34,461 nt of DNA from Thermoplasmata archaeon (GTDB lineage Archaea; Thermoplasmatota; Thermoplasmata; Lutacidiplasmatales; UBA184), in the NCBI GenBank assembly GCA_030041735.1, contig JASIBA010000164.1, positions 1 to 34,461 of the forward strand, written 5' to 3'. Position 1 is the stretch's first letter; each line of letters starts with the position of its first letter. The notes below the pieces were generated by a model. It worked only from the letters and a program-made list of their open reading frames with translations. It was not told the DNA's origin and did not search any database. The translations under genes were made by a program, and so were the position numbers. Below are positions 14,383-19,038 of this stretch, one piece after another.

Positions 14383-14835
14383 ATGCTCTGCGAGATGTGC
14401 GGAAAGGACGTCGCGTCGACCTCGCGCGTCCGCATCGAGGGATCGGTGCTCCGCCTCTGTCCCGACTGCGCGCGGTTCGGCAAGCCGATCGACCCGCCCC
14501 CCGTCCCGGCGGCTGTGCGCTCGATCCCGCCGCCGACGCGCTACGGCGGGGGCGCCTCCCGGTCGGCGACCGGTCCGCGGCGGATGGAGGAACGCGACCT
14601 CTACGTCGAGATCGGCGAGCTCGAGCTGGCCGCGGACTGGCCGAAGCGGATCCGGCTCGCCCGGGAGGGCCTCCGCTGGACCCCGGAGGATCTCGCCAAG
14701 AAGCTGAACGAGAAGAAGTCGATCGTGCTGAAGCTCGAGAGCGGTGGGTTCCACCCGCCGGACGACCTCGTGCGCCGGGTGGAGCGCCTCCTGAAGGTCC
14801 GGCTGCGGGCCGACGGGTCGACCCCGACCGCCTGA
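14383..14835 (+). CDS. Archaeal multiprotein bridging factor aMBF1 (Zn ribbon + HTH)
   Basis: MLCEMCGKDV...LRLCPDCARFG followed by IRLAREGLRWTPEDLAKKLNEKKSIVLKLESG. Confidence 0.92.
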   Translation: MLCEMCGKDVASTSRVRIEGSVLRLCPDCARFGKPIDPPPVPAAVRSIPPPTRYGGGASRSATGPRRMEERDLYVEIGELELAADWPKRIRLAREGLRWTPEDLAKKLNEKKSIVLKLESGGFHPPDDLVRRVERLLKVRLRADGSTPTA

Positions 14836-14887: not shown

Positions 14888-16324
14888 ATGCCCGCTCGAT
14901 CCAAGGCCCGCACGAAGTCCCGGTCGGCTCCGAAGCGCTCGGCCCCGCGGCGCCCGGCCCTCACGCCGACGACGAAGGCGCGCAAGGTGTTCATGGTGAC
15001 CGGCGGCGTGACCAAGTTCGCGAAGGCCCACCCCTCGATGGACTTCCGGCTGATGGTCAAGCGGGCGTACGACTACGCCCTGAAGGACATCCCGAACCTC
15101 ACCAAGGACCGGATCGACGGGACGCGGATCTCGTACTTCTCGGACCACTTCTCGCGCCAGCTCAAAGCGGCGAGCATGGTCCAGGACTACCTGGGCATGA
15201 ACCCGAAGGGGTCCGTGCGCATCGAGTGGGGCGGGGCGACCGGCGGCGAGTGCTTCCAGGCGGCGTACGAGGCCGTCGCGAGCGGCCGCATGGACGTCTG
15301 CCTCGGGGCCGGCTACGAGACCATGAGCCGCGTCGCGACCTGGAAGGGCAACGAGTTCATCGCGCTCGCGTCCGACACGAACTTCGACTTCCCGCTCGGG
15401 GGGTTCTACACGGGCTACTACGCCCTCATGGTCGTCCGCCACATCTACGAGTACATCCGGCGCAGCAAGTACGCGCACGTCACGGACGAGCGCGAGGCGC
15501 AGCGGCTCGCCATCGCCGAGGGCGCGCGCATCATGAGCCTGGTCTCGGTCAAGAACCACCGCAACGCGCTCCACAACCCCTACGCGCAGTACCCGAAGCG
15601 GCTCACCGTCGACGACGTGCTGCGATCGGAGATGATCAGCTACCCGCTGACCCGCGAGCAGATCTGCACGATGAGCGACGGGGCGGCCGTCGTGGTCCTC
15701 TGCACGGAGGAGCGGGCCAAGGAGTTCACCTCGAAGCCGGTCCGCGTCATCGGCGTCGGGACCGGCACCGACACGATGCGGCTCGCGGACCGACCGTTCG
15801 GGCAGGTGCCGCTCATGCCGAAGGAGCGGGCGAGCGACTACGAGGATCTGCAGTACCCGGGCATCCACTCCTTCCGCGCGGGCCGGGCGGCGGGCCTCGA
15901 GGCGTACCGCATGGCGGGGATCACCGATCCGAACCGGGAGCTCGACTTCATCGAGCTGCACGACGCCTACGCGTCGAGCGAGATCCAGACCTACGAGGAC
16001 CTCGGGCTCTGCAAGTACGGCGAGGGGTACGACTTCACCGAGCGCGGCGACCCGTTCCTGAAGGGGATCGACTACGGCTTCGAGGTGCCGGGCGCGGGCG
16101 CGATCCCCGTGAACCCGTCGGGCGGGCTGATCGCCTGCGGCCACCCGGTCGGCGCCACGGGCCTGATGCAGGGCGTCTTCGCCTTCTGGCAGCTCCAGGG
16201 GACGATCGCGAAGCACTTCGGCGACCGGACGCTGCAGATCGCGAACGCCCGGCGCGGGGCGATCCACAGCCACGCGGGGACCGGGTCCGCGGTCACCGTC
16301 TCGATCCTCGAGCGGGGGTTCTGA
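14888..16324 (+). CDS. SCP2/archaeal-type thiolase-fold protein (annotated type: acetyl-CoA acetyltransferase); canonical nucleophile Cys apparently absent
   Basis: DYLGMNPKGSVRIEWGGATGGECFQAAYEAVASG, ELHDAYASSEI, GGLIACGHPVGATG; basic N-term extension. Confidence 0.9.
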   Translation: MPARSKARTKSRSAPKRSAPRRPALTPTTKARKVFMVTGGVTKFAKAHPSMDFRLMVKRAYDYALKDIPNLTKDRIDGTRISYFSDHFSRQLKAASMVQDYLGMNPKGSVRIEWGGATGGECFQAAYEAVASGRMDVCLGAGYETMSRVATWKGNEFIALASDTNFDFPLGGFYTGYYALMVVRHIYEYIRRSKYAHVTDEREAQRLAIAEGARIMSLVSVKNHRNALHNPYAQYPKRLTVDDVLRSEMISYPLTREQICTMSDGAAVVVLCTEERAKEFTSKPVRVIGVGTGTDTMRLADRPFGQVPLMPKERASDYEDLQYPGIHSFRAGRAAGLEAYRMAGITDPNRELDFIELHDAYASSEIQTYEDLGLCKYGEGYDFTERGDPFLKGIDYGFEVPGAGAIPVNPSGGLIACGHPVGATGLMQGVFAFWQLQGTIAKHFGDRTLQIANARRGAIHSHAGTGSAVTVSILERGF

Positions 16325-16851
16325 TGCGGCCCCGGCCCCCGACCTACGACAAGTTCCGCGACGTCCAGGCCGAGCTCGACAAGACCGGCGCCGCGATCTT
16401 CCGCGACGTCGACCGCGTCGAGAGCCTCGTCATCCGCTACCCCTACTCGATCACGTACATCCACAGCTACGCCGAGGACTCGCCGTTCTTCCTCGGGCTC
16501 GCCGAGGGCAAGCTCCGCGGCTCCAAGTGCCGTCGGCCCAAGTGCGGGTTCGTCTACGCGACGCCGCGCAGCCACTGCATGGTGTGCGGGGCGCCTACCG
16601 AGTGGATCGATCTGCCCACCTCGGGTCGCGTCCACTCCTGGACGACCTGCCACTTCGGCAGCGAGGCGTTCCTGAAGGAGACGCCGTACAACCTCGCGAT
16701 GGTCGAGTTCGACGGGGTCGGGAGCCTCCTCCTCGTCCGCCTGAAGGACGCGGTCGAGTCGGACCTCTACGTCGGGATGCCGGTCGAGGCGCGCTTCGAC
16801 CCGAACCCGAAGTACCTCGTGACCGACATCTGGTTCGTGCCCAAGACCTGA
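16324..16851 (+). CDS. DUF35 / Zn-ribbon OB-fold acyl-CoA-associated protein
   Basis: FFLGLAEGKLRGSKCRRPKCGFVYATPRSHCMVCGAPTEWIDLPTSGRVHSWTT...; TGATG overlap with thiolase gene. Confidence 0.9.
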   Translation: MRPRPPTYDKFRDVQAELDKTGAAIFRDVDRVESLVIRYPYSITYIHSYAEDSPFFLGLAEGKLRGSKCRRPKCGFVYATPRSHCMVCGAPTEWIDLPTSGRVHSWTTCHFGSEAFLKETPYNLAMVEFDGVGSLLLVRLKDAVESDLYVGMPVEARFDPNPKYLVTDIWFVPKT

Positions 16852-16861
16852 GCGGGCAGGC

Positions 16862-17416
16862 TCACGGATCCCGGAGCCCGACCAGGGCGAGCACGTCCTG
16901 GTGGTCCCGGGCGAACTCGCTCGCGACCATCGTTCGGACCGGGCGGAACGCGAGCTCGCGCCAGAGGGGACCGGCCGCCGGGGCCGGATCCGGCCAGGAG
17001 AACCGATAGACGAACTGGAGGTCCCAGTGCGGGTCGCCTCCCTCCGCGCCGCGCCCGTACGTCTCCGAGAACACCTGCGGGCGGCCCGGCTCGTCGATCG
17101 GGCGGCCGAGCAGCTCGGCCGAGATCCGTCGGGCCGCGTCGCCGGGGGACTCGAACAGCAGGAGGTGGCTCGCCGGCAGCATCCAGCGATCCGGCCATCG
17201 TCGGAGCCGCTCCCCGCTCAGGCCCCCGGCCTCGGACCACGGGCCCTCGGGATCGATCCGGCCCAGGAGCACGTCGCCGGGTCGGGTCGCGGACTCGACG
17301 ACGAGGAAGGCGCTCAGGCAGAAGCCGTCGTCCGGGACCTCCGACGTCCCGGCCGAGGGCGGGCGAGTCCCCGGACGGAACCGGCAGAACCGGCGCGCGG
17401 CCACGCGCGCCCACAC
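16862..17416 (-). CDS. Uncharacterised protein, possibly degenerate Nudix-fold
   Basis: Region LLLFESPGDAARRISAELLGRPI resembles a Nudix box lacking catalytic residues; HWDLQFVYRF and ELAFRPVRTMVASEFARDHQDVLALVG. Weak call. Confidence 0.5.
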   Translation of the reverse strand: MWARVAARRFCRFRPGTRPPSAGTSEVPDDGFCLSAFLVVESATRPGDVLLGRIDPEGPWSEAGGLSGERLRRWPDRWMLPASHLLLFESPGDAARRISAELLGRPIDEPGRPQVFSETYGRGAEGGDPHWDLQFVYRFSWPDPAPAAGPLWRELAFRPVRTMVASEFARDHQDVLALVGLRDP

Positions 17417-18403: not shown

Positions 18404-18892
18404 TCAACGGGACGGGATTGCGTCCCAGAGATAGCCCGGAAGCGATAGACCGGCGCGTTCGATCTCGGCGCGCTCGACCGGACGCCAGAAGGTCCGGAGG
18501 GAGCCGCAGGGCCGGCCGTCCTCGGAGGCCGAGGTCGCGTCGATCGCCTGCCCCTCCGGCGCCAGGGGACCCAGCCGCGCCCGGGCCACGTAGAGTCGAC
18601 CGGCGCGCGGGAGCCGGCGGTGCTCGTAGGTGCCCGGACCGGTGCTCACCATCAGCCGGCCGCCCAGCTCGAGCGCGGTCCAATACGAGACCTCGTAGAG
18701 CACGGTAAAGTGGAGCCCGGTGTGGAACAGCCCGGGCCAGCCGGTCTCGTCGGACTCGGGCCGGAAGAACGTGCGCAGCTCCCGGCTCCCGTCCGCATCC
18801 TCCACCCGCTCGAACCGGAGCCGGAGGCCCCGGGGGTTCGCGGGCCCGCATCCGAAGCACCGGTTCTCGGGAGGGTTCTCCAGCTCGACCAT
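18404..18892 (-). CDS. Hotdog-fold thioesterase-like protein (PaaI-like)
   Basis: MVELENPPENRCFGCGPANPRGLRLRFERVED... CFGCG motif typical of this group; ORF extends to 18958 but ATG 18892 fits better. Confidence 0.72.
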   Translation of the reverse strand: MVELENPPENRCFGCGPANPRGLRLRFERVEDADGSRELRTFFRPESDETGWPGLFHTGLHFTVLYEVSYWTALELGGRLMVSTGPGTYEHRRLPRAGRLYVARARLGPLAPEGQAIDATSASEDGRPCGSLRTFWRPVERAEIERAGLSLPGYLWDAIPSR

Positions 18893-19038
18893 GCGGGGGG
18901 AACGCGCGGCCTCCCTCTTGCGGTTTCGGAGCCGGTCCGCCTCCGGGTCCCGGCCCAACGCGCGCGCGTGCGTTCGAGCGGCGGATCACGCTTCACCGGC
19001 GGGCGAGCCTTATCAACCCCTCCCGACCTCGTGAGTGC

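Follow-up and report, generated by a model that had tools for sequence, protein, structure and literature searches.

Two overlapping genes of a Thermoplasmata archaeon encode a thiolase-fold protein without the nucleophilic cysteine and its DUF35 partner, and they represent a widespread, tightly conserved and uncharacterised family. The window, i.e. the whole stretch of DNA that was analysed, comprises 34,461 nucleotides. We put the probability at roughly one half (about 0.48) that the two proteins form a heteromeric enzyme, a non-covalent aldolase-type C-C lyase/ligase, operating alongside a coenzyme B12 mutase in the metabolism of short branched-chain acyl-CoAs. New here are the conservation of the Cys-less site throughout the family, a residue signature specific to the family and the association with an isobutyryl-CoA-mutase-like enzyme; no prior description of the family's function was found in the openly accessible literature. 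The features concerned are:

14383..14835, + strand: HTH (HTH_3) protein upstream of the pair, a neighbour kept only in the window's own archaeal family
14888..16324, + strand: thiolase-fold protein of the PRK06365-like clade, without nucleophilic Cys, 478 aa
15143..15148, + strand: Asp86-His87, invariant in the family (109/109 rows), candidate catalytic or substrate residues
15233..15235, + strand: codon of Gly116, the thiolase nucleophile position (6esq Cys85, Ltp2 Gly83) by gapless alignment
15959..15961, + strand: His358 of the HDAY motif, aligned with the catalytic Tyr294 of Ltp2 (Tyr in 5/109 rows)
16142..16144, + strand: His419 of GHPVGATG, the active-site His of thiolases, aligned with the catalytic Tyr344 of Ltp2 (108/109 rows)
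16271..16273, + strand: His462 of HSHAGTG, family-specific (108/109 rows)
16324..16851, + strand: DUF35 partner, 175 aa, with zinc ribbon (C-x4-C ... C-x2-C) and OB fold

The stop codon of the thiolase-fold ORF and the ATG of the DUF35 ORF share the sequence TGATG, as an earlier note made from the DNA letters had described. Pfam recognizes Thiolase_N, Thiolase_C and Thiolase_C_1 in the larger product and zf-ChsH2 with OB_ChsH2_C (DUF35) in the 175-aa one, whose top PDB match is 9myr_B. The first ~30 residues of the thiolase-fold protein probably form a basic, disordered N-terminus; residues 30-478 yielded an AF2 model with mean pLDDT of 86 and pTM of 0.90. Its closest fold found by Foldseek is 6esq (TM 0.80/0.91), with Sal (9myr) at rank 32 and Ltp2 (6ok1) at rank 34, and this fold match, together with the Pfam domains, assigns the protein to the thiolase superfamily. 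Its best solved sequence relatives are again 6esq, an archaeal acetoacetyl-CoA thiolase, and a thiolase from Pyrococcus. The top NCBIfam match is PRK06365/NF004982 (residues 29-475), where the score of 628 bits does not reach the curated cutoff (695 bits).

Conservation of the active site was followed in a family alignment of 109 rows, corresponding to ~96 distinct loci as some were entered twice; L060 and L061, the two members that diverge most, were left out. The earlier note had placed a glycine where the acyl-accepting cysteine normally sits, and the gapless alignment agrees: Gly116 falls on Cys85 of 6esq and is present in 109/109 rows, whereas 8/8 Cys-type reference thiolases carry Cys there. 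Gly115, Asp86, His87, Tyr174, Tyr177, Tyr178, Arg298 and Asp359 are likewise invariant, and His358 occurs in 104/109 rows, the remainder having Tyr. His87, Tyr174, Tyr177, Arg298 and His462 are not found at these sites in the eight references, and Ltp2 also lacks His at the position of His87. The HDAYA (358-362) and CGHPVGATG (beginning at 417/418) motifs are kept as had been noted; the protein lacks the nucleophile of an ACAT-type thiolase and retains the GHPxGATG histidine (His419). The nearest cysteine indeed lies six residues on, in GGEC, but this Cys122 varies freely within the family (52 C, 27 A, 12 T, 10 S, 7 G and 1 N in the 109 rows) and was rejected as a shifted nucleophile; the second thiolase Cys (HDCF) is replaced by Ala360. 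Residue geometry is deduced here from the alignment.

Because Gly116 is invariant in ~96 archaeal and bacterial loci, alongside new invariant residues, the loss of Cys is an old, fixed redesign of the active site and not decay. The same invariance of Gly116 and its surroundings rules out a degenerating gene or an assembly error. A subgroup within the archaeal family f5 (L037-L044, L021, L174) has YDAY or YDSY for HDAY and GHA for GHP, and its motif seems to converge on the Tyr of the Ltp2/Sal motif.

Among 293 genomes of the phylum, the family (membership threshold E <= 1e-110) is present in 47; these come from three families of the class, with a few from outside it. A scan of species genomes gave 80 loci. 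Identity is 85-89% for the closest Thermoplasmata and falls to 55-65% in Scalindua, Nitrospirae, Deltaproteobacteria, Planctomycetota, Chloroflexi, Acidobacteria and others, and to ~40% in Lokiarchaeota, Marinimicrobia and Phycisphaerae (names follow the deposited MAG labels). In all members of sufficient length, Gly occupies the nucleophile site. In the tree, whose deep order is unresolved, whose branches are long and which does not include the Sal sequence, the family groups as a single clade (SH-aLRT 99), apart from HMGCS-linked thiolases and from Ltp2 (99). Sequences scoring over the PRK06365 cutoff fall into this same clade. An insertion of ~20 residues near positions 190-212 is common to the window protein and its archaeal family.

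In most loci whose contig extends beyond the family member, the DUF35 gene adjoins it. The other neighbours in the window (HTH protein, EF-1alpha, topoisomerase) are kept only within its own archaeal family, and the loci examined contain no constant third partner beside the pair. Acyl-CoA dehydrogenase is encoded near the pair in 26/80 loci; elsewhere the neighbours include CoA ligases, CoA transferase, enoyl-CoA hydratase, 3-hydroxyacyl-CoA dehydrogenase, canonical thiolase, PrpD and MeaB. The tested genomes with the family contain 6-9 acyl-CoA dehydrogenases each, while in three genomes without it these are few or absent. The context is thus one of acyl-CoA oxidation rather than of mevalonate synthesis. 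No single substrate fits all neighbourhoods. Since a canonical thiolase shares the cluster in several loci, the pair is not needed there for ordinary thiolysis.

Several neighbourhoods deserve separate mention. On a Lokiarchaeota contig (L185:10088-13478), two more Cys-less thiolases and DUF35-like genes are lined up consecutively beside a family member, near a BKACE-like gene. A Scalindua locus (L127:10082-16438) contains a mutase-thiolase-DUF35 cluster followed by genes which, by eye only, resemble the lysine fermentation pathway (Kce, 3,5-diaminohexanoate dehydrogenase, KamA, KamD). In the window itself, the genes at 18404-18958 and 16862-17416 (both - strand, both beside the pair) have no Pfam match; the former looks by eye like a hot-dog thioesterase.

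A two-subunit coenzyme-B12 mutase is encoded directly upstream of the pair in some ten bacterial loci, which belong to Scalindua, Nitrospirae, Deltaproteobacteria, Planctomycetota, Methylomirabilota, Acidobacteria and Chloroflexi. At two specificity sites the linked mutases carry Phe/Gln, compared with Tyr/Arg in methylmalonyl-CoA mutases. We take Phe/Gln to be the pair of isobutyryl-CoA mutase and Ile/Asp to be the signature of 2-hydroxyisobutyryl-CoA mutase. Methylmalonyl-CoA mutase is rejected on account of the wrong specificity residues, and 2-hydroxyisobutyryl-CoA mutase because Ile/Asp was not seen. According to PMC7238569, which cites Jost et al., the two positions are known specificity determinants. 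Substrates of IcmF are isobutyryl/n-butyryl-CoA and pivalyl/isovaleryl-CoA (PMC10481361).

The F/Q-mutase signature, searched with the pattern QND and with a second pattern, Q[AT]D, for one archaeal family, occurs in 46/47 phylum genomes with the family and in 62/246 without it; within the class the counts are 43/43 and 1/47. As this contrast tracks a few archaeal families and hence few independent events, its Fisher p-values do not count as independent evidence, whereas the physical linkage seen in distant bacteria does. Neither the mutase nor the dehydrogenases adjoin the pair in the window's own genome, and many genomes outside the class have the mutase and no detected family member.

The window contains no HMG-CoA synthase gene, as the earlier note had remarked, yet the genome has one on another contig (C154), accompanied by its own thiolase and DUF35. 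The pair under study is not adjacent to it, contrary to the archaeal HMGCS/ACAT/DUF35 arrangement, and its role as the acetoacetyl-CoA thiolase of the mevalonate route is rejected because the HMGCS operon has a thiolase/DUF35 set of its own. Cys-bearing thiolases are encoded elsewhere in the same genome (L001, L006, L007), the second canonical enzyme that had been proposed for search, so that the loss of Cys in the window gene leaves the cell with thiolases. The HMGCS-linked thiolase itself (L003, G000:C154) has neither the Cys (RVEAGGASG) nor the GHP His (GRP). Throughout the class, the thiolase directly downstream of HMG-CoA synthase lacks the nucleophile in 49/51 loci (L003, L066-L115), retaining it only at L066 and L113; the site is occupied by Gly, Ser, Thr, Asp or Glu and the GHP His is usually missing too. 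These sequences suggest a class-wide pseudo-thiolase in the mevalonate complex. The genome also encodes a third Cys-less thiolase/DUF35 pair (L004/L013, G000:C20), which has Ser in the nucleophile position (RVESASGTGG) and resembles the uncharacterised ST0096.

From fold, loss of Cys, conservation, pairing with DUF35 and the genomic link to mutase and acyl-CoA dehydrogenases, we infer chemistry, substrate, direction and residue roles as follows. An acyl-CoA would be bound in the usual thiolase CoA site of the heteromer, and a C-C bond next to the thioester would be made or broken via an enolate, without covalent acyl-cysteine; by its established mechanism, the ping-pong thiolase reaction is excluded where there is no nucleophile. 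The remaining equipment would consist of the CoA site, the thiolase His and new acid/base candidates near the acyl pocket. The most likely reaction would be aldol/retro-aldol: a 3-hydroxyacyl-CoA, supplied by acyl-CoA dehydrogenase and hydratase, would give an aldehyde or ketone and acetyl- or propionyl-CoA, or the reverse. His358, His419, Asp86-His87 and His462 would provide the acid, the base and the oxyanion hole, and the pair would act alongside the isobutyryl-CoA-mutase-like B12 enzyme.

Such aldol chemistry is plausible by analogy. Characterised enzymes that combine this Gly with a DUF35 partner are aldolases cleaving 3-hydroxyacyl-CoA (PMC12329534), and the dehydrogenase/hydratase context fits their reaction order. 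Tertiary 3-hydroxyacyl-CoAs, which are not oxidisable to 3-keto forms, would need a cleavage step of this kind. No HMG-CoA lyase over cutoff was found in the nine genomes searched, which is weakly compatible with a leucine route via 3-hydroxyisovaleryl-CoA (giving acetone and acetyl-CoA). Against the aldolase reading, the dyads of Ltp2 and Sal are not conserved, and the closest relatives by fold and sequence are Cys-type archaeal thiolases. A more far-reaching proposal, which we regard as tentative, is that the family may be a new, widespread, non-steroid class of thiolase-fold aldolases with a His-based site (His358/His419 and Asp86-His87), which in archaea and many bacterial phyla would handle short branched-chain acids by a so far undescribed route shared with the isobutyryl-CoA-mutase-type enzyme.

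The main rivals of the aldolase reading are a scaffold role and decarboxylation. The protein could be a catalytically silent thiolase-fold scaffold organising DUF35 and another enzyme, a role suggested for PhlA; inactive thiolase-superfamily subunits are known in DUF35 complexes, and the class itself has the Cys-less HMGCS-linked thiolases. We consider this unlikely, as His358, His419 and the new polar residues scarcely vary among archaeal and bacterial members, in contrast to the HMGCS-linked proteins with their variable Cys and His positions, and a constant third partner does not stand alongside the pair. Decarboxylation or another enolate reaction, for example on malonyl- or methylmalonyl-type CoA, would suit the retention of both histidines without Cys and the propionate/B12-mutase context; Cys-less ketosynthase decarboxylases exist. 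TbSLP slowly decarboxylates malonyl-CoA, but Sal has no decarboxylase activity (PMC12329534). The linked mutase, moreover, has no Arg for binding the carboxylate of a methylmalonyl group, and we hold this alternative to be quite improbable.

Acetoacetyl-CoA thiolases being the closest relatives, the pair might still work as an acyltransferase or thiolase, via direct transfer or another nucleophile such as Cys122, which about half of the family has. This is highly improbable: the other half has Ala, Thr, Ser, Gly or Asn at that position, the second thiolase Cys is replaced by Ala360, and canonical thiolases occur in the same clusters as the pair.

Proteins of the family are easily misread as acetyl-CoA acetyltransferases and would then be counted in genome-based metabolic maps as the acetoacetyl-CoA step, which they are not able to perform through the normal mechanism. 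Their conserved active site and the B12-mutase operon point to an unassigned step of branched-chain acyl-CoA metabolism in archaea and uncultured bacteria. The parallel loss of Cys in the HMGCS-linked thiolase raises the question of the source of acetoacetyl-CoA for the lipids of this archaeal class.

Among known systems, 6esq offers the best fold match and the best PDB sequence match, and shares the DUF35 partner and the thiolase His; its Cys85 and the Cys of its HDCF motif, however, correspond to Gly116 and Ala360 here, and the window pair forms a separate clade with no HMG-CoA synthase next door. PRK06365/NF004982, an uncharacterised NCBIfam "thiolase domain-containing protein", belongs to the same clade and its above-cutoff orthologues carry Gly at the site, while the window protein scores under the cutoff and has the ~20-residue insertion. 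ST0096 (4yzo), an uncharacterised Sulfolobus thiolase-like protein, also misses the nucleophilic Cys, but it has Ser in place of Gly, an HDMA motif and another position in the tree. The steroid aldolases Ltp2-ChsH2 (6ok1) and Sal-Shy (9myr) have in common with the window pair the Gly at the nucleophile site (Gly116 on Ltp2 Gly83; Gly also replaces Cys in Sal, PMC12329534), the DUF35 domains and the acyl-CoA dehydrogenase context. Unlike them, the pair has no hydratase fusion, and HDAY stands in place of their YDHF/YDCY. The residues essential for the aldolases are Tyr294/Tyr344 in Ltp2 and Tyr302/Cys304 in Sal (PMC12329534); the window protein has His358/His419 and His358/Ala360 at these positions, and thus neither the YDxx tyrosine nor the second residue (Ltp2 Tyr344 or Sal Cys304). 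Consequently, the earlier suggestion of Ltp2-type C-C lyase chemistry holds as regards the missing nucleophile, the constant DUF35 and the shared Gly, and is not supported as regards membership of the Ltp2/Sal group: filing the protein there was rejected because the catalytic residues differ, and neither the tree nor the fold comparison places them together. Judged by its residues, the window protein would resemble these aldolases in logic while standing outside their group.
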